Positions 420 through 32,716 of a DNA stretch of 37,292 nucleotides are shown one piece after another. The notes under the pieces were generated by a model. It saw nothing but the letters and a program-made list of their open reading frames with translations, did no database searches and was not told where the DNA came from. The position numbers and the translations under genes are program-made. Position 1 is the stretch's first letter. Each line of letters begins with the position of its first letter. This DNA is from a bacterium (GTDB lineage: Bacteria > Bacillota_I > Bacilli_A > RF39 > UBA660), in assembly GCA_030531425.1 (NCBI GenBank), contig JAUNNO010000005.1, forward strand, positions 4,711-42,002, written 5' to 3'.

Positions 420-648
420 AAAAAAAGTCCTTACACAAAGGAGCGCAAGGACTTTTACGCGGTACCATCCTAATTTATACCTTAATTATAATAACGGAAT
501 TATCCGGTTTATCTTTCGATAACAGCTCATAGGTAGTAACTAATTATTTGCTTATTTATTTCCACCAAACATAAACTCTCTTTAAAGCTAATATAATTAA
601 TCTTGTCCTAATCATGGCTTTTTACACATTTAATAATTTGATACATAT
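420..648 (-). promoter_or_regulatory. T-box riboswitch leader, probable Thr (ACU) specifier
   Basis: The minus-strand leader carries the invariant T-box sequence AGGATGGTACCGCG (458-471). It is followed by a terminator whose stem is AAAAGTCCTT/AAGGACTTTT with a U-run (420-456). Upstream are the Stem I elements GATTAGGACAAGA, AGAGAG and TTGGTGGAA. The basal helix TAGG/CCTA and upper helix TAATTAT/ATAATTA enclose an internal loop whose 3' side reads GTTACTA. By the usual pattern of codon, then A, then CCU, the specifier is ACU (535-537), which is threonine. UAC (Tyr) overlaps it and is the main alternative. The leader ends just before the ribosome binding site of the gene starting at 404. Confidence 0.88.
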
Positions 649-4626: not shown

Positions 4627-6312
4627 ATGAGAATCAAGAATAATGAAAATGATACAAAAATTTTTGCTTTAGGTGGGCTTGGTGAAGTTGGTAAAAATAT
4701 GTATTGCATAATGACAGATAGTGAATTAATAATTACTGATGTTGGAATTACTTTTCCATCTGATGAATTGCCAGGAATAGATTATATAATACCTGACTTT
4801 ACTTTTTTAAAAAAGAATGAGAAAAAAATAAAGGCTCTTTTTATAACTCATGGCCATGAAGATCATATAGGTGGTATTCCTTTTTTACTTCAAACTGTTA
4901 ATGTTCCTTCAATTTATGCGCCTAATCAAGCAATCGGACTTATAAGGAAAAAATTAAATGAAAAAGGTATAGAATTTAAGGGGTTACATGTTTATGATGA
5001 AAATACAAAAGTAAAATTTAAAACAATGTCAGTAGATTTTTTTAGAACTACCCACTCTATTCCAGATTCACATGGAATTGTAATTCATACTCCAGATGGT
5101 GTTATTGTTACAACAGGAGATTTTAAATTTGATCTTACACCTATTGGACCTATGGCAAATATACATAAAATGGCAAGTATTGGTTCTAAAGGAGTTTCAC
5201 TACTCTTAAGTGACAGTACTAATGCCCTAAATGAAGGTATGAGTACTAGTGAATCCAAAGTAGATAAAGCATTATCACATATATTTAGTCAAGAAGATAG
5301 TAGAATTATAATAGCTACATTTGCTTCTAATATTTATAGATTAAAACATATTGTAGACACTTGTAAAAGAAATAATAGAAAAATAGCAATATTTGGTAGA
5401 AGTATGGAAAATAATATAGAAATTTCTCTAGAATCAGGATACATAAAGCATAAAGAAATCTTTATCACCCCAGAAGAAGCAAATAATCTACCTAACAAAG
5501 AAGTATGCCTACTTTGTACTGGATCCCAAGGAGAACCACTTGCAGCTTTATCTAGAATTGCAAATGGATCACATCGTCAAATAAAATTACAAGATGATGA
5601 TGTTGTCATATTTTCATCATCAGCAATACCAGGTAATGCGCTTAGTATATCTAAAATAATTAATAAACTATATTTGCAGGGTGTAAAAGTTTATACCAAT
5701 ACTTCACTAAATGATGTTCATACATCAGGTCACGGTAACCAAGAAGAATTAAAACTTATGTTAAGACTTTTTAAGCCAAAATATTTTATGCCATTCCATG
5801 GCGAATATAGAATGTTAAAATGTCATGCAGATTTAGCTATAGAATGTGGTATTCCAAAAGAAAATACATTTATCCTAGAAAATGGTGATGTCCTATCTTT
5901 AAAAAAAGGTATTATAAAAAAAGATAAACCAATTCAAGCTGGAGATGTATATGTTGATGGAAACCGTATTGGAGAAATTGGTAATGCCGTAATGCGTGAG
6001 AGAAAAATAATGTCTAGCGATGGAATTGTTATTGTAATAGCAAATATAGATACACAATCAAAAAAATTAGTTACATCTGTTAATATAACCACAAGAGGAT
6101 TTGTTCTTATACAAGAAAGTTTAAGTCTATTAAAAGAAATAGAACAAGAAGCAAATAATATAATAAATAATCGTCTTAAAATCAATTGTATTTTTTCAGA
6201 TATAAAAAATGATATAATAACTAACTTATCACAATTTATACACGAAAAAACAGGAAGATATCCTATTATAGTTCCTATTATGAACGATGTAAAAAAAGCT
6301 ACTAAACAGTAG
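4627..6312 (+). CDS. rnjA: Ribonuclease J (RNase J1 type)
   Basis: RNase J is the metallo-beta-lactamase/beta-CASP 5' exonuclease and endonuclease of Gram-positive mRNA decay. The zinc motif HGHEDH is at residues 75-80. The further metal ligands are in TTHSIPDSHG and TGDFKFD, and the beta-CASP domain (about 200-370) has ATFASNI, FGRSMEN, TGSQGEP and SGHG. The C-terminal domain ends EKTGRYPIIVPIM. At 561 residues it is full length and follows B. subtilis RNase J1 over its whole length. The start has the strong site GAAAGGAGG. The 3' end overlaps the convergent thioester-protein gene by 11 bases, and its last codons form half of the shared terminator. Confidence 0.96.
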   Translation: MRIKNNENDTKIFALGGLGEVGKNMYCIMTDSELIITDVGITFPSDELPGIDYIIPDFTFLKKNEKKIKALFITHGHEDHIGGIPFLLQTVNVPSIYAPNQAIGLIRKKLNEKGIEFKGLHVYDENTKVKFKTMSVDFFRTTHSIPDSHGIVIHTPDGVIVTTGDFKFDLTPIGPMANIHKMASIGSKGVSLLLSDSTNALNEGMSTSESKVDKALSHIFSQEDSRIIIATFASNIYRLKHIVDTCKRNNRKIAIFGRSMENNIEISLESGYIKHKEIFITPEEANNLPNKEVCLLCTGSQGEPLAALSRIANGSHRQIKLQDDDVVIFSSSAIPGNALSISKIINKLYLQGVKVYTNTSLNDVHTSGHGNQEELKLMLRLFKPKYFMPFHGEYRMLKCHADLAIECGIPKENTFILENGDVLSLKKGIIKKDKPIQAGDVYVDGNRIGEIGNAVMRERKIMSSDGIVIVIANIDTQSKKLVTSVNITTRGFVLIQESLSLLKEIEQEANNIINNRLKINCIFSDIKNDIITNLSQFIHEKTGRYPIIVPIMNDVKKATKQ

Positions 6313-6320
6313 CTTTTTTT
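6291..6320. terminator. Bidirectional terminator shared by rnjA and the thioester protein gene
   Basis: AGCTACT (6297-6303), loop AAAC, AGTAGCT (6308-6314), flanked by seven A on the left and T residues on the right, so it works in both directions. Both stop codons (6310-6312 plus, 6302-6304 minus) lie inside the stem. Confidence 0.85.
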
Positions 6321-7735
6321 GATTTTATAACTAATATAAAACCTAATAATATTAAAATAATCCAAAAATAATTTTTATTTGTTTTAACTAAAGTATTTGG
6401 TACATCTACTACCATTACTTCTTTTGTATCATAAAGATTATATATATAGTCTTTTTTTTCTTTTAAATTTAAATACAATCTTTCTACAAAATTATATCCT
6501 TTTTTTCCACTTGTTTGTACTAAATAATAATCTCCATATTCAAGTTTATCATTTATTTTACCATTTTCTGTTATATATGTTTTTAAATAATTATTACTAG
6601 AATCATATAAATCAAATTTAGCTCCATCTTCTAACTTACATCTATCATCTTTTATATATTTATATATCACTAAATTATTTTCAATAACATTTTCCATAGA
6701 AGTTATACTAATATCTTTATTACTATAATTTAAGTCTATTTCATATACATTATTATCTAATAAATAACCTAAACTAGGACTTATTTCTTTAACATAATAA
6801 TTTCCTAATTTTATATTATCTATATAAGCTATTCCTTTATCATCAGTTTTTATTGTAGTTATTAATTTATCATTATCATAAATTCCATACTCTGCTCCTT
6901 CTAGATTAGCTTCTATTCTATTCTTATTTTCACTATCTAATTTATTTATAGTTATACTTCCACTTTCTACTTTTATATCTATAGTAAAGTATTGATCTTG
7001 TACTTTTCCTGGATGAAGTAATGGTTGATATCCATCAATATAATATATTATATAATCATCTTTTACAGGACTTTCTCTTTTAAACTTAATTTTATATGTA
7101 CCTTTATCTTTAGTATTAATATAAAGCTTATTTGATTCTATATAAGAATCTATATCAGATTCAACAATACTATAATTATTTAATACATTATTTAAATCCA
7201 CTACTTCATAATTACTATTTATAGTGTATTCAAACTCTCTATTTGCAAAACTAGGTTTTAAATAATAATTATTAACTAAACGATTTATCTCCTCTACTTC
7301 ACTTTGATATTGATTATTTTTTTCTAATGTATTTGTATCTACAAAATATATATTATCTACATTAGTCTGTTCCCAAATTAAAAATTGAGTTACACCATAC
7401 CATTTAATGTCAGTGTGATTTAAATAACCATATCCATAATAAGCTATTAAATTCATTCTATCTATTTTTTCATCTGAAAAATTAAATATAGGATTATTAT
7501 AATTATATCCTTCAACAAGACCCGTTGTATACACATCTAAAAATGGATTTAGGCAATATACAAAAGTATCATCACTTCTTTTTAACATATATGGCACCCC
7601 TGTATGTGTTTGATATAAATTATCTCTATAAACTTTCATATTAGGAACCTTTTCTCCAATATAAAAACTATCTAAAGCATAACTTGAACTAATAAACATA
7701 AAAATAGTTATTAAAATAAATATAAATTTTTTCAT
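6302..7735 (-). CDS. Secreted thioester-domain (TQXA) adhesin with two Cna-B/SpaA-like repeats
   Basis: Surface thioester proteins bind host or other targets covalently through a Cys-Gln thioester. The 477-residue product has a signal peptide (1-20). A TQXA-type domain follows, with the likely thioester Cys61 (FVYCLNP) and Gln117 (VTQFLIW), separated as in the family. After a beta-rich linker (about 165-265) come two SpaA/Cna-B-like beta domains: GSITINKLDSENKNR... (about 268-355) and NNLVIYKYIKDD... (about 358-435). The C-terminus has VPNTL (445-449), a hydrophobic segment and KSKK. This resembles a sortase signal, but the usual glycine of LPxTG is leucine. The start at 7735 has AAAGGAG eight bases upstream. 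The function is inferred from domains; no sortase gene is in the window. Confidence 0.82.
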   Translation of the reverse strand: MKKFIFILITIFMFISSSYALDSFYIGEKVPNMKVYRDNLYQTHTGVPYMLKRSDDTFVYCLNPFLDVYTTGLVEGYNYNNPIFNFSDEKIDRMNLIAYYGYGYLNHTDIKWYGVTQFLIWEQTNVDNIYFVDTNTLEKNNQYQSEVEEINRLVNNYYLKPSFANREFEYTINSNYEVVDLNNVLNNYSIVESDIDSYIESNKLYINTKDKGTYKIKFKRESPVKDDYIIYYIDGYQPLLHPGKVQDQYFTIDIKVESGSITINKLDSENKNRIEANLEGAEYGIYDNDKLITTIKTDDKGIAYIDNIKLGNYYVKEISPSLGYLLDNNVYEIDLNYSNKDISITSMENVIENNLVIYKYIKDDRCKLEDGAKFDLYDSSNNYLKTYITENGKINDKLEYGDYYLVQTSGKKGYNFVERLYLNLKEKKDYIYNLYDTKEVMVVDVPNTLVKTNKNYFWIILILLGFILVIKSKKATV

Positions 7736-7754
7736 AATGCCTCCTTTCAATATA

Positions 7755-7783
7755 TTTTTATCATTTTTTATTAAATATATCAA
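7755..7783 (-). promoter_or_regulatory. Putative promoter of the thioester protein gene
   Basis: Minus strand TTGATA (7778-7783), 17-base spacer and TAAAAA (7755-7760), close to the ribosome binding site. The -10 is imperfect. Confidence 0.4.
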
Positions 7784-7938: not shown

Positions 7939-10335
7939 TTATTTTACTACAATATTTACTAGTTTTTTAGGTACTATTATTACTTTTAATATTTCCTTAT
8001 CTTTTGTAAATGTACCTACATTTTCAATATTTAATGCTTTTTCTTTCATTTCTTCTTCTGAAGCATTCGAATCTACTTCTACTTTACCTCTTACTTTGCC
8101 ATTTACTTGAACTACTAATTCATATGTTTCATCAATTATTTTTGCATCATCATAACTAGGCCAGTCAGAATAAGCTATTGTATCTTTTTCTTTAAATACT
8201 TCACTCCAAATTTCTTCAGTAATATGCGGTGCTATTGGATTTAATAATTTTATTAATCCTTTAGCATATTCTTTATAAAAGTTATTTTCTTTATAGACAG
8301 CATTTATAAATATCATCATTTGACTAATAGCTGTATTAAAGTTTAATGATTCATAATCTTCAGTTACTTTCTTTACTGTTTTATTATAAATTTTATCTAA
8401 TTTACCATCATTTGTATCAGTTATTTTATTATCTTCAACATATAGTCTCCATACTCTATCCAAGAATTTTTTAGAACCTTCAACAGCATCATCATTCCAT
8501 GGTTTATCTGCTTCCAAAGGTCCCATAAACATTTCATAAAGCCTTAATGTATCAGCACCATAGTCTCTTACTATATCATTTGGATTTACTACATATTCAG
8601 GATATCTTTTACCCATTTTAATTCCATTAGAACCTAGTATCATACCTTGATGAACTAATTTTTTAAATGGTTCTTTTACTGGTACTATACCTTTATCATA
8701 TAAATAATTATTCCACATTCTAGAATATAATAAATGTCCTACTGCATGTTCTGGTCCACCTACATAAAGGTCTACTGGCATCCAGTGTTCCATAAGTTTT
8801 TTTGAAGCTATTTCTCTATCATTATTAGGATCTATATATCTTAAAAAATACCAACTAGATCCAGCACTTCCTGGCATTGTAGATGTTTCTCTTTTTCCTT
8901 TTATACCATCAATTTCTACATTTACCCAATCTTTTGCATTTTCAAGTGGAGACACTCCATTTTTACCTTTATAATCTTTTAACTCTGGTAAAATTAAAGG
9001 TAAGTCTTCATCACTTAATACTACATCCAAACCATTTTCTAAATGAACTATTGGAATTGGTTCTCCCCAATATCTTTGACGAGCAAATATCCATTCTCTT
9101 AATCTATAATTTATTTGTTTGTTTCCTAATTTTCTTTCTTCTAACCAAGAAATCATTTTATCTATTGCATCTTGTTTATTTAATCCATCTAAAAATTCTG
9201 AATTAATATGAACACCATCACCTGTATAAGCACACTCTAGAATACTATCTCCATCTATTACTTGAATAATTGGAATATTAAATTTTTTAGCAAATTCATA
9301 GTCTCTATCATCATGAGCTGGTACTGCCATAATAGCACCTGTACCATAACTTGCAAGTACATAATCACTTATCCAAATAGGTATTTCTTTATTATTTACT
9401 GGATTTATTGCATAAGCACCTGTAAATACACCTGTTTTTTCTTTATTAAGTTCTGTTCTTTCTAGGTCAGATTTAGTTGAACACTCTTTCTTATAATTAT
9501 CTACTTCTTCTTTTTTATCTTTAGTAGTTATTATATCTATTAAACTATGTTCTGGAGAAAGTACACAGTATTTGGCTCCAAATAAAGTATCACAGCGTGT
9601 TGTAAATACTTCAAAAGACTTATCAGTATCTTTAACTTTAAAAACAACTTTAGCACCTATACTTTTACCAATCCAATTTCTCTGCATCTCTTTAGTAGAT
9701 TCAGGCCAATCAACTTCATTTAACCCATCAAGTAACCTTTCAGCGTACGCTGGAATATCTATTACCCATTGCTTCATATTTTTACGAACAACAGGATATC
9801 CACCACGTTCTGATTTTCCATCTATTACTTCATCATTTGCAAGAACCGTACCAAGTTCTTCACACCAATTTACTGGCATATCTATACATTTAGCATATCC
9901 ATCTTCATATAGTTTTTTAAATATCCATTGTGTCCATTTATAATAACTTGGATCAGACGTGGAAATTTGTCTATCCCAATCATAAGAAAATCCAAGAAGT
10001 TTTAATTGTGATTTAAAAGTTTCTATATTTTTCAAGGTAAACCCTGCTGGATGGTTACCTGTATTTATCGCATATTGTTCTGCTGGAAGTCCAAATGAAT
10101 CAAATCCCATAGGATGTAGAACATTATACCCTTGCATTCTTTTCATACGACATACTATATCTGTTGCTGTATATCCTTCAGGATGTCCTGCATGAAGGCC
10201 TACACCAGACGGATATGGAAACATATCTAAAGCATAAAATTTAGGTTTACTAAAATCATTTATATCAGTTTTAAATGTTTCATTATCCTCCCAATATTTT
10301 TGCCACTTTTTTTCTATTTTCGAAAAATTATACAT
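7939..10335 (-). CDS. leuS: Leucyl-tRNA synthetase
   Basis: LeuS charges tRNA-Leu. The 798-residue protein has the class I signature [16 protein letters not shown] (HAGH at 48-51), the zinc/editing region beginning [24 protein letters not shown], the editing domain with [11 protein letters not shown], and the C-terminal anticodon and tail domains. The second class I motif reads KMGKR (573-577, in [17 protein letters not shown]) rather than the textbook KMSKS, so the loop serine is glycine; the second lysine is retained. The start is an ATG after GGAGGTAAAC. That ribosome binding site is inside the last codons of the upstream membrane-protein gene, which overlaps leuS by eight bases, so the two are translationally linked. 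No leucine T-box is seen upstream. Confidence 0.97.
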
Positions 10336-10681
10336 GTTTACCTCCTTGCTTTTTATTTAAATATTTACCTATAATATGATATATAACTAACAGTAAAACT
10401 ACTAAAGTTATAATACCAAAAATAAGTTCTAAAAATATATTTTTAAATCTAGTTACAACAAAAACCGTTGTAGATAATATAAATGAATTAGCTAAAAATA
10501 CACTGTTAGCTATACTTTTTAAATTTGAATCATTTACTTTTACATTATATTTATATTTTAAATATGTAATCTCTTTACCATCAGGAAACTTTTTTAGTAC
10601 ATTTTTCCTTGATAAAACAAATACTACATAAAATAAATAAATAAGTACAAATGTAATAATATATAAAATAATTTCTTCCAT
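10328..10681 (-). CDS. Small membrane protein of unknown function, coupled to leuS
   Basis: A 117-residue protein with an N-terminal membrane segment (about 3-23) and two closely spaced hydrophobic segments (about 62-80 and 86-107), separated by a basic cytoplasmic-looking stretch with [19 protein letters not shown]. Short proteins of this layout occur in low-GC Gram-positives, but I know of no assigned function. The start is supported by AGGAGG, seven bases upstream. Its stop codon overlaps the leuS start region by eight bases. A hairpin and a promoter lie just upstream, so it is probably the first gene of a two-gene transcript with leuS. Confidence 0.75.
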
Positions 10682-10692
10682 TAAATCCTCCT

Positions 10693-10719
10693 AAAAAATT
10701 CACTAAATAAGTGAATTTT
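10693..10719 (-). terminator. Hairpin with U-run just before the 10681 gene (GH31 terminator or attenuator)
   Basis: AAAATTCAC (10695-10703) pairs with GTGAATTTT (10711-10719), followed on the minus strand by a T-run (10693-10698) that touches the AGGAGG of the next gene. It most simply ends GH31 transcription. A promoter-like sequence at 10742-10770 lies upstream of the hairpin, so it could also attenuate the leuS transcript. Confidence 0.65.
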
Positions 10720-10741
10720 ACCTTGCTCATTTAATAGTAAT

Positions 10742-10770
10742 ATTATATTACACTTCACCAATATATTCAA
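10742..10770 (-). promoter_or_regulatory. Putative promoter of the membrane protein-leuS operon, inside the GH31 3' end
   Basis: Minus strand TTGAAT (10765-10770), 17-base spacer and TATAAT (10742-10747). The -35 and spacer are in the last GH31 codons and the -10 abuts its stop codon. Confidence 0.5.
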
Positions 10771-13111
10771 GCAATTTTAACATTAAACTTACATATTTAC
10801 TCTCTAAATATTCCTTTTCATGAGAAAGTTTTCTTATCTTTATTCTTTTTTTCTTTATATCAAATTCTTTAGAAAACATTATATCATTTACTTTTTGCTT
10901 TAAATTAGTTTTTATTGGAAGATCACTTATAATTGATGTTATATCATCCTTTATAATCTTAAAATAATCTATCTCCATACTATTATCCCCATTACAAGCT
11001 ATAGTAAACTGCTCTTCTGTAGATACATCTTTTACTTCTATTATTAAATCGGTATTTTGAGTATAAACTTTTCCATCTAATTTATTACTAGAAGAATACA
11101 TAGATACATCCTTTGGCATTTTTGTATTTCTAAATACTATTTTATAATCCCTAAGTTTTGGAATTATTCCCTTTTTACCACTTACCGGTAATATAGTTAA
11201 TCCATAATTATTTTTTCTATATACATATTCTATATTTGTTATTAAATAATCACCTTTTAAATAATTATTACTAACACCATCATCTTCATAAATACTATAA
11301 GTATTATTATCTCCAGGAAATACTTGTATTTCTAACTTTTTTGGAACTGCAACATCATTATAAGAATTTAAAGACATTGGTATAATAGAACCAGCTCTAA
11401 CAAATACTGGATATTCTTCTTCTTTATAAAAAGATACATATCTTTTTTCTCCTTTAAATACTTTACCTGTAAAAAAATCATACCAAACGCCTTCTGGAAT
11501 AAATATCTTCTCTATAACCCTATTCATTATATAATCTTTTCTTTTTGTTATAGGGCTTACTAAAAAACTAGTTCCAAGAAAGTATTCATCATTATACAAA
11601 GGATCATCATAAGCATTTGGATATTTATAATAAAGAGGTTCAATAAGTGGTTTACCAAATTTATAATATTTATATGATTCTGTATATAAATAAGGAATTA
11701 ATCTATATCTAAGTTTCAAAAAATCTGATGATATTTTAAAAGTTTTAAACCCCCACTTCCAAGGTTCCCTTTTATAATAATTACCTCCACTAGATCCTAA
11801 CATTGTTATTGGAGAAAAAACACCAAGTTGTACAAATCTATCAAAAAGTTCTCCTTCTTCTATACCATCTTTAGTTCCACCTACATCATAACAAAATAAA
11901 CTATTTCCAATATTACTAGAATCACAAAGAAACTTTGGAATTTGTTTTAATGTATCCCAACTAACCTTGGATTCTCCTATATATGATATAGAATACCTAT
12001 GTGAAGCTACACTAGTATTATATGATAACATTAAAGGTCTTTTATTTATATATTTATAATTATTATAGTATAAATAATGTTTTAAAAGATTATAAAAATT
12101 TAAATTTTTATTTTTTAAAAAATAAAAATCTACACCGATACTATCTAATGGATTAATAAGTATCTTTAGATATGCATCTATAGTTTTACAATCAAGTATA
12201 TTAAATGGAATATTATTATTTTTATCTCTATATAAATATTTAACTAGTTTTATATAATCTTGTGTACCATATTTATAATAATCAAATTCATTTAATGAAA
12301 GTCCAAATTTTATATTTAAGCCTTTAAACATAGATACTAATTCAGATGAATTATACTTACTAGAAAAATCATGACTTGATAAGTTATTCCAATTATTTAA
12401 AGTAAACAATGATATTGGTATATTATTATCTTTAAATTTTTTTACAACTTTCTTTAATTCTTCATCAGTATAGTTTTCATTTTTATTCCACCAATTACCA
12501 AATGCATAACGCGGTAATAAAGGAGGATTTCCTGTTAAATTAAAATAATCATTTAAACAATAATAAAAATCTTTATTATATAAAAATACATAAATATCTA
12601 TGCCATTATTATTATTTTGACTAAAACTACCATTTTCTAACATAATATAATTATTAGAATCATCAATAGATACAAATCCATCTTGTGAATACAAACTTTT
12701 TTGTAATTTTTTACCTTCAAAACCTGATACGTTCACTTTAAAATTTCTAACTTCAGGATGATTATAATACCAAGTCTTATCAGTATTTAATAATTTGATT
12801 TTTAAATTTTTCATAGGAGCTACTTTACTTCCTAAAAAACTTTTTTCTTTTAAATAAATTAACTCAAAATAATTTGTATTTATCTGTAACACATCATTAT
12901 TTTGATTAACTATAAATTTTGGTTTATCAAAATTTCTATTCATTACTAACTCAGTTAAGTTATCATTAAAAATGCCATTTGGATTATATTCAAGTCTTAA
13001 TAGTCTTTCAGTTAAAACTGTTATACGATAATACTTACCTTTAAATACACACTCACTATTAGCAAGTCCTTTGGATAAATTAATTTTAAACTGATTACCT
13101 AAATCATACAT
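10748..13111 (-). CDS. Glycoside hydrolase family 31 homologue with altered catalytic residues
   Basis: The 787-residue protein has the GH31 fold: an N-terminal beta-sandwich (about 10-190), a TIM barrel starting at LLPRYAFGNWWNKNENYT, the conserved segments GNSLFCYDVGG, LRYRLIPYLYTESY and FLGTSFLVSPI, and a C-terminal beta domain. The active site does not look normal. The segment that carries the nucleophile Asp in related enzymes (GVDFWWIDWQQ-like) reads GVDFYFLKNKN (326-336), with Lys at the Asp position. The acid/base SGDT segment reads IGES (378-381). The usual VIDMDWH reads LFTLNNWN. It may be a carbohydrate-binding pseudoenzyme or have changed chemistry. There is no signal peptide, so it is probably cytoplasmic. 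The ATG at 13111 is preferred over an upstream GTG because GGGGTG lies six bases before it. No sugar-transport genes are adjacent. Confidence 0.85.
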   Translation of the reverse strand: MYDLGNQFKINLSKGLANSECVFKGKYYRITVLTERLLRLEYNPNGIFNDNLTELVMNRNFDKPKFIVNQNNDVLQINTNYFELIYLKEKSFLGSKVAPMKNLKIKLLNTDKTWYYNHPEVRNFKVNVSGFEGKKLQKSLYSQDGFVSIDDSNNYIMLENGSFSQNNNNGIDIYVFLYNKDFYYCLNDYFNLTGNPPLLPRYAFGNWWNKNENYTDEELKKVVKKFKDNNIPISLFTLNNWNNLSSHDFSSKYNSSELVSMFKGLNIKFGLSLNEFDYYKYGTQDYIKLVKYLYRDKNNNIPFNILDCKTIDAYLKILINPLDSIGVDFYFLKNKNLNFYNLLKHYLYYNNYKYINKRPLMLSYNTSVASHRYSISYIGESKVSWDTLKQIPKFLCDSSNIGNSLFCYDVGGTKDGIEEGELFDRFVQLGVFSPITMLGSSGGNYYKREPWKWGFKTFKISSDFLKLRYRLIPYLYTESYKYYKFGKPLIEPLYYKYPNAYDDPLYNDEYFLGTSFLVSPITKRKDYIMNRVIEKIFIPEGVWYDFFTGKVFKGEKRYVSFYKEEEYPVFVRAGSIIPMSLNSYNDVAVPKKLEIQVFPGDNNTYSIYEDDGVSNNYLKGDYLITNIEYVYRKNNYGLTILPVSGKKGIIPKLRDYKIVFRNTKMPKDVSMYSSSNKLDGKVYTQNTDLIIEVKDVSTEEQFTIACNGDNSMEIDYFKIIKDDITSIISDLPIKTNLKQKVNDIMFSKEFDIKKKRIKIRKLSHEKEYLESKYVSLMLKLLEYIGEV

Positions 13112-13226: not shown

Positions 13227-14303
13227 TTATAAACCTAAATCACTTGGTTTTACTGTTATTACTGGGCGAATACCTAAACTAGAATTTATATTAGCATGAT
13301 CAGCCATAAAATTTTGCATTCCCATTGCACGTTTAGGCCCCCATGAAGCCTTATAAGAATCTGAAAACCAGTAATTACCCTCAAAATTACCTTCATAAGT
13401 CCGAGGTAATCTGGATTTCATATTTTCAAATGTCGCAGTAATAGATCCGTCCTTCATTGTTATTGTCGTAGTGGTACCAAGAGTTGTTATTGAACCATAT
13501 CCATTATAAGTTGATTGACCTATGCCTGTGAAATTACTATCATTATTTACTAAATCTATTAAATATAAATTGTTCCAAGAACTAGTAGCCTCATATAAAT
13601 ATTCCATCGCTGTTATTGGACCTTTATCATAATTTCCATCGGCCCCATAACCTTCACCTGTTCCAGGCGAAGAATTATAATCACTTTCTGATACCCACTG
13701 TGTTTTACATTCTCCTGTTAAATCTTCTGTTCCATCAATACATATATTTTTATCCATTATTAAATTATATGCAAATGGTACTTCATCATTATTTTGAGAA
13801 AACATATCTGAAATTTGTCCTTCCTCATTTATTTTGCTTAAAATATAAAATGTAAATGTATCCTTATCATTAACTTTACAAGTATATTTGGCTCCTACTT
13901 TTCCTTCTTCACCTTCATTTGCAAAAGTACATATTTGTTTAGATTTTCCATATGTATATTCTATACTTTTTCCTCCTACACTACATCCTGTTATATATAA
14001 AGAACCATCTTCATATATTTTTATCGTATCACAAGATACTTTTTCTCCATCATATTTAACATTAACTACATCAGAAAGTGTATCTGTTGTAAAACTACCT
14101 GTTATTCCTTTACTTCCATCTAGTTGTGATGATACTATTGCATTTTTTACTGCTTTAGTATAATTTTCTGCACTCCTCTTTTGTGCTTCTTTTTTTGAGT
14201 CTTCAATAATATCTATTATTATTGGGACCGCTATTAGAGCTATTATTGCTAGTATTACTATTACTGCTAAGAGCTCTATCAATGTAAAACCTTTTTCCTT
14301 CAT
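13227..14303 (-). CDS. Type IV pilin-leader surface protein with DUF6273-like C-terminal domain
   Basis: The 358-residue protein starts with a classical type IV prepilin leader (MKEKG/FTLIELLAVIVILAI): short basic leader, cleavage after Gly5, Phe and the conserved Glu at mature position 5. The long hydrophobic helix reaches about residue 32 and an amphipathic helix about residue 60. A small beta region (about 65-125) follows, then a C-terminal domain rich in Gly, Asn, Trp and Tyr that ends SSLGIRPVITVKPSDLGL. That ending resembles the DUF6273 domains common in gut Firmicutes surface proteins. Cysteines (C91, C106 and others) could form disulfides. GAGGAGG supports the start. No pilus assembly ATPase, platform protein or prepilin peptidase is in the window. 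The leader is nearly identical to that of the gene at 36155-37267. Confidence 0.8.
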   Translation of the reverse strand: MKEKGFTLIELLAVIVILAIIALIAVPIIIDIIEDSKKEAQKRSAENYTKAVKNAIVSSQLDGSKGITGSFTTDTLSDVVNVKYDGEKVSCDTIKIYEDGSLYITGCSVGGKSIEYTYGKSKQICTFANEGEEGKVGAKYTCKVNDKDTFTFYILSKINEEGQISDMFSQNNDEVPFAYNLIMDKNICIDGTEDLTGECKTQWVSESDYNSSPGTGEGYGADGNYDKGPITAMEYLYEATSSWNNLYLIDLVNNDSNFTGIGQSTYNGYGSITTLGTTTTITMKDGSITATFENMKSRLPRTYEGNFEGNYWFSDSYKASWGPKRAMGMQNFMADHANINSSLGIRPVITVKPSDLGL

Positions 14304-32373: not shown

Positions 32374-32716
32374 TGGTGGAGCCGATGGGAATCGCACCCA
32401 TGTCCAAATATATTAACACAATAACATCTACAAGTTTAGTTAATTAATAAATTTCCTGTTAAATAAGTTAATTAACAAACAATTTAACAGTAAGCCTATA
32501 TTATTCATTATTACTTATAGACATCATAATAATATATCCTACTAAATGAACCTCATATAGACATCGCAGGAAAATATCTAATGAAGTGCTTCCTAATTAT
32601 ACTAAGCGAAAGCTAATTGATTTCTGTTTCCAGTTATTTTTATTTGGGATTTGACGCAATCACCTTTCGACTTGCAGTTAAAGCTCAAATATATCTGTCG
32701 AATCTAAGACGGCCCC
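32374..32716 (-). ncRNA. ssrA: tmRNA (transfer-messenger RNA), predicted tag GNRNQLAFA
   Basis: tmRNA rescues stalled ribosomes and tags their products for proteolysis. The minus-strand 5' end GGGGCCGTCTTAGATTCGAC and 3' end ATGGGTGCGATTCCCAT-CGGCTCCACCA form the tRNA-like part. The acceptor GGGGCCG pairs with CGGCTCC (one G-U pair), CCA is encoded, and the T-arm is ATGGG/CCCAT. A conserved 5' pseudoknot region is followed by TAACT and the tag frame GGA AAC AGA AAT CAA TTA GCT TTC GCT TAG (32602-32631), giving GNRNQLAFA. The resume codon GGA is inferred from the preceding TAACT. The C-terminal LAFA is typical of a protease-targeting degron. Length is about 343 bases, one piece. Confidence 0.95.

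Follow-up and report, generated by a model that had tools for sequence, protein, structure and literature searches.

The window analysed here is a stretch of bacterial DNA of 37,292 nucleotides. On its minus strand a GH31-like gene was found within the order pilin-like gene, GH31-like gene, small membrane protein gene, and leuS. The main features are as follows.

436-624, minus strand: T-box leader (Rfam)
7939-10335, minus strand: leuS (leucyl-tRNA synthetase), the usual downstream neighbour, profile-checked in the window
10328-10681, minus strand: small membrane protein of 117 aa, a usual neighbour, overlapping leuS by 8 bases
10682-10747, minus strand: gap of 66 bases between the GH31-like gene and its next neighbour, in which an AT-rich hairpin is followed by T
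10748-13111, minus strand: GH31-like gene, 787 aa, intact, predicted from the sequence to be non-catalytic
13227-14303, minus strand: protein of 358 aa carrying the N-terminal methylation motif of type IV pilins, at the site held by pyk in many relatives
32374-32716, minus strand: tmRNA (Rfam)

The GH31-like frame opened at an ATG and ran over 787 codons without interruption, as the preliminary description of this DNA had stated; an alternative GTG start 18 bases further upstream would give a protein of 793 aa. The ribosome binding site claimed in that description was also found, as AAGGGGTGA directly 5' of the ATG. As to the promoter called good there, a 10/12 match with TG ahead of TATAAT was present at 13175-13147. 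Because 45 similar matches were observed in the gene region against 38 (sd 6) in shuffled sequences, the match was regarded as weak evidence. The hairpin in the gap had a fold z-score of -1.4 and was not called as a terminator. No second GH31 was found in the window's genome (1.32 Mb, 98 contigs, 94% complete).

Relationship to GH31 and the active site

The window protein matched all three Pfam GH31 domains far above the cut-off (E-values of 1.6e-34 for PF01055, 3.6e-18 for PF21365, and 2.8e-13 for PF17137). Its nearest solved relative by sequence was 7wj9, which is LlGH31_u1, the GH31 alpha-1,3-glucosidase of Lactococcus lactis with Asp341 as the nucleophile and Asp394 as the acid/base, as given in excerpts of PMC9061262. 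This structure and that of its D394A mutant, described in the same excerpts as inactive, were far ahead of the next solved chain (E of 2e-92 versus 1.3e-40). Judged by sequence, the window protein is closest to the u1 clade among the solved GH31 proteins.

An AlphaFold monomer model of the window protein (mean pLDDT 91.8, pTM 0.92) had 7wj9 as its top Foldseek match over nearly the whole length (E 6.3e-57, TM 0.81). VIA-align of the model gave 7k9n_C with a Z of 42.1, an rmsd of 3.2, and 642 aligned residues; 7wj9 was absent from the best 50 VIA-align entries although it ranked first in Foldseek, and we read nothing into this absence. The domain order was that of LlGH31_u1, including the extra C-terminal four-helix domain, and the window protein was the sole GH31 found in its genome, as LlGH31_u1 is in its own according to the excerpts of PMC9061262. 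These results agree with the previous assignment as a GH31 homologue that keeps the fold-defining segments, since all of the quoted segments were present and the Pfam and Foldseek results pointed the same way.

The altered active-site codons were located by alignment at the following positions.

11795-11797, minus strand: Gly439, in place of the active-site His of RLHS in GH31
11972-11974, minus strand: Glu380, at the acid/base position
12113-12115, minus strand: Lys333, in place of the nucleophile (codon position counted from the start at 13111)
12395-12397, minus strand: Asn239, in place of the first Asp of IDMDW in GH31

It had been proposed that the nucleophile Asp is replaced by Lys, that the acid/base SGD reads IGE, and that VIDMDW reads LFTLNNW. 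All three pairings were recovered in the alignment to 7wj9, in which the Asp of FWWID aligned with Lys333 (FYFLK) and that of SGDS with Glu380 (IGES). The pairwise alignment and an alignment of 203 proteins agreed with each other and placed Asp at neither catalytic position. In GH31 enzymes the nucleophile sits where a barrel strand ends on its C-terminal side, and inspection of the model placed Lys333 at such a strand end. Further replacements were Asp to Asn239, Arg to Tyr364, and His to Gly439, the RLHS His being one for which excerpts of PMC9061262 describe an active-site role; none of the five canonical residues was left. The equivalents of His280, His427, and Trp554 were also replaced, whereas Asp409 of SHDxGG and an aromatic residue at the Phe391 position were kept. 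LlGH31_u1, in contrast to the window protein with 5/5 replaced, retains its -1 pocket in full and can hydrolyse nigerose (PMC9061262, excerpts). The change from Asp to Glu at the acid/base position is conservative for the window protein alone; its close relatives have mostly Lys there, and also Arg, Asn, or Leu.

The suggestion of lost catalytic acids and a likely pseudoenzyme was strengthened by the 0/5 canonical residues and by the extension of the loss to the whole lineage. The sequence comparison supports the view that the window protein is a pseudoenzyme, that is, a member of an enzyme family without the conserved catalytic residues that is kept by selection. It is very probably not a glycosidase and would be unable to hydrolyse glycosides. 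Annotation by homology would likely name it an alpha-glucosidase or alpha-xylosidase, and a sugar-degrading capacity that is probably absent would then be credited to a large uncultured, mostly gut-associated lineage.

Distribution and loss of catalytic residues in the family

Within the GTDB-style taxonomic family of the window's organism (hereafter the family), a GH31-like homologue was found in 176 of the 193 sampled genomes (126/140 of the good ones), in 137 of 148 genera, and in 15/16 genomes of the window's genus. An order-wide draw of 146 genomes, all of which fell in the same family, gave 129 carriers. The gene was missing from 17/193 family genomes, indicating that it is dispensable. 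The carriers came mostly from animal-gut metagenomes and some from other habitats; when viral contigs were scanned once with the window protein, no relative turned up. Among the carriers of the disarmed protein was Candidatus Coprosoma intestinipullorum, whose genus is placed in the order RF39 in an excerpt of PMC8035907, and the family showing the loss is probably the order RF39.

The dN/dS ratio was 0.038-0.141 in the 25 closest pairs; it was 0.084 for a pair of the window's genus in which both proteins have Asn as the nucleophile (L006/L008), and 0.064 for the one canonical outgroup pair. Together with the presence in 176/193 genomes, these low ratios, which point to purifying selection, bear out the earlier statement that selection keeps the gene.

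The 203 distinct proteins compared, which remained of 222 after identical cores were merged, consisted of 18 from other families of the class (the outgroup, L176-L193), 171 from other genera of the family, and 14 from the window's genus. Duplicate or partial loci (L001, L002, L171-L175, L194, and L195) and proteins shorter than 550 aa were left out of the alignment. The counts below refer to the top-scoring loci of each search together with 40 further, mostly lower-scoring ones, and not to a random sample.

Acid/base Asp: 18/18 outgroup, 2/171 other genera, 0/14 window's genus
Nucleophile Asp: 18/18 outgroup, 157/171 other genera, 3/14 window's genus (lost in 11/14)
RLHS His: 18/18 outgroup, 32/171 other genera, 0/14 window's genus
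LSR Arg: 18/18 outgroup, 128/171 other genera, 2/14 window's genus
All five canonical residues, including the first Asp of IDMDW: 18/18 outgroup, 0/171 other genera, 0/14 window's genus (family total, 0/185)
All five except the acid/base: 32/171 other genera, 0/14 window's genus
Lys at the acid/base position: 75/171 other genera, 9/14 window's genus

In the window's genus, nine proteins including that of the window kept none of the five residues and five kept one. The GH31_u1-like outgroup proteins were similar in length to those of the family and 30-39% identical to two family proteins (tblastn, 12 loci), differing from the family in that all of them had the five residues.

On a FastTree tree built without the catalytic columns, the family separated from the outgroup as a single clade, inside which the window's genus was again a single clade. 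As parsimony minima, which by themselves give no direction of gain or loss, two changes were needed for the acid/base state and at least 15 for the nucleophile. The two family proteins with an acid/base Asp (L043 and L155) grouped together, and a long basal branch (L201) had Arg at this position with the other four residues kept. Because the Asp is present in all 18 outgroup proteins, the simplest reading is that the acid/base was lost early, at or close to the root of the family. Loss of the nucleophile came later and happened many times independently. This natural series from 4/5 to 0/5 residues across many genera shows an enzyme turning into something else, and makes it possible to test when along it binding, oligomer, and function are altered.

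One family genome (G075) had genes of both kinds: a disarmed gene (L203) and a canonical-looking GH31 piece at a contig end (L174/L256, G075:C16), in which IDMDW was kept and which was cut by the contig end.

New near-invariant residues were also found in the family, namely Y446, K447, W453, Y482, K755, R756, and Y783. Tyr446 was present in 185/185 family proteins, Trp453 in 182/185, and Tyr482 in 183/185; Tyr446 was not typical of the outgroup. Two of these residues lie in the following segment.

11753-11785, minus strand: GxYYKREPWxW segment, residues 443-453, following the lost His (alignment)

Because the near-invariant Tyr446 and Trp453 lie here, after the lost His, the segment seems to have been refitted and not just to have decayed, as far as the sequence can indicate.

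C-terminal helix domain

10751-10975, minus strand: C-terminal four-helix domain, residues 713-787 (model and alignment), highly conserved in the family

The four helices lay within residues 717-786 (model numbers plus 1). The mean majority share in the family was 0.694 for this domain versus 0.619 for the barrel; the domain was conserved like the best-kept ones in the family, whereas it was variable (0.36) in the outgroup. In LlGH31_u1, the extra C-terminal helix domain forms the hexamer together with barrel insertions and the N-domain, and insert 1 supplies part of the contact, according to excerpts of PMC9061262. In the window's genus the loop matching insert 1 was shorter by about 10 residues (median 21 versus 31-32), so that the oligomer of the window protein may differ from the LlGH31_u1 hexamer. 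By analogy with that hexamer of a single distant homologue, the window protein is probably still oligomeric.

The C-terminal module was also considered as a widespread adaptor and rejected as such, since a second match occurred in only 5/186 genomes and a broad network was not found. Separately, a membrane protein ending in the C-terminal module of the GH31-like gene was observed at three loci of different genera (L171, L172, and L173 in G084, G193, and G066). Their DNA was 99.6-99.7% identical over 1.5-2 kb, which reflects either recent transfer or bin contamination. A gene beside this membrane protein presumably encodes a beta-N-acetylhexosaminidase, and in L171 a further one presumably encodes an IstB-like ATPase, both judged from motifs.

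Gene neighbourhood and candidate roles

Among the flanks of 80 named loci, which were often limited by contig ends, leuS was found at 57, the small membrane protein at 56, and pyk, which we take to be such from reading its sequence, at 34. In the window, pyk was not the upstream neighbour. Nearby leuS was seen in the basal locus L257 and in L258, L259, and L261, and was absent near L260, L262, and L263. At all 12 outgroup loci examined, pyk, leuS, and the small membrane protein were absent nearby, and some outgroup copies adjoined sugar genes (glycogen phosphorylase and a GlgB-like gene at L252; GH36 at L244). The GH31_u1 genes described in excerpts of PMC9061262 likewise lie among genes for sugar uptake and utilisation, whereas that of the family is often beside leuS and sometimes beside pyk.

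The small membrane protein matched no Pfam or NCBIfam family at the cut-off. It was present in 174/186 family genomes, lies just upstream of leuS in the window, and is an unnamed conserved family. As an obligate partner of the GH31-like protein it was rejected, because it occurred in 13/17 genomes without the GH31-like gene as well as in 161/169 others; the co-occurrence (Fisher p 0.015) is confounded by gene absences in incomplete genomes. As frequent neighbours, pyk, the small membrane protein, and leuS are candidate partners as leads only.

We propose that the gene product is a cytosolic, non-catalytic descendant of the GH31_u1 alpha-1,3-glucosidases. As the LlGH31_u1 structure suggests, it would oligomerise through its C-terminal helices, and the remodelled barrel face with the invariant GxYYKREPWxW segment might bind a protein or small ligand, this being the least certain step. 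The oligomer would then serve some housekeeping function as its scaffold or regulator. For this statement as a whole, a non-catalytic GH31_u1-derived oligomeric scaffold or regulator with no partner named, we estimate a probability of about 0.6.

The preliminary description had suggested carbohydrate sensing or binding, in which case the old active site would bind sugar uncut and signal to the cell as a sensor or lectin. The retained GH31 fold, Asp409 of SHDxGG, and the aromatic residue at the Phe391 position fit this, and crystals of the LlGH31_u1 D394A mutant had its ligands bound (PMC9061262, excerpts). The suggestion is plausible for one branch of relatives, the 32/171 proteins that keep all but the acid/base and would hold sugar uncut. 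For the window protein it is weak, because the pocket Asp, Arg, and His, the nucleophile, and the equivalents of His280, His427, and Trp554 are all replaced and because its genome gave no match to GH13 (controls positive in 13/14) or glycogen phosphorylase (controls positive in 12/14); we consider it unlikely here. A scaffold or regulator is favoured because sugar sensing is weak for the window protein, with the choice of such a role over that of a sugar receptor standing at about even odds. A pure scaffold would have no need of the nucleophile Asp, which is kept in 157/171 proteins of other genera. The same retention would suit an enzyme of changed chemistry, using the nucleophile without an acid/base on donors with good leaving groups or with a new acid such as Lys (75/171 in other genera and 9/14 in the genus), the activity in the window's genus being secondarily lost or moved; migrated residues are mentioned for some pseudoenzymes in an excerpt of PMC10211241. 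The acid/base site takes 16 different residues among the other genera, with at least 54 changes on the tree, which favours no single new acid, and the nucleophile has been lost repeatedly and is Lys in the window protein, making this reading less likely still than sugar sensing.

A decaying gene without function would account for the decayed active site, the 17/193 genomes without the gene, and the stops in single matches among those listed (one TGA in G199 and two TAA in G253). Against the dN/dS far below 1, the conserved C-terminal domain and position, and the intact frames of nearly all matches listed at 44-62% identity, decay is very improbable. No more credible is an ordinary enzyme whose true catalytic Asp pair lies elsewhere and was misaligned: the short loop after Lys333 does align with gaps, but the pairwise, 203-protein, and model-based placements agree, adjacent motif residues are conserved (VDF, HRY, the D of SHDxGG, and REPW), and the other pocket residues were lost together.

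Returning to the scaffold or regulator, we tentatively suggest, at somewhat less than even odds, that a GH31_u1 glucosidase was disarmed at, or close to, the origin of the whole lineage, probably RF39, and was moved to a housekeeping neighbourhood beside leuS. There, with its pocket refitted, it would have become an oligomeric regulator or scaffold without catalysis, present in nearly all members. The ectodomains of rBAT and 4F2hc, termed 'fake or orphan' alpha-glucosidases in an excerpt of PMC8537225, resemble such a protein only in their way of working, as an alpha-glucosidase-like fold retained as a non-catalytic subunit. Unlike the window protein, they are animal, extracellular members of GH13 (the alpha-amylase family) tied to amino-acid transporters. 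If the proposal is true, the window protein would be a prokaryotic GH31-based counterpart of these GH13-derived subunits. The limited literature collection searched yielded no paper describing a disarmed GH31 from RF39.

Elsewhere in the window, at 6302-7783 on the minus strand, a surface-type protein with thioester (PF08341) and SpaA (PF17802) domains was observed, which is possibly a covalent adhesin.
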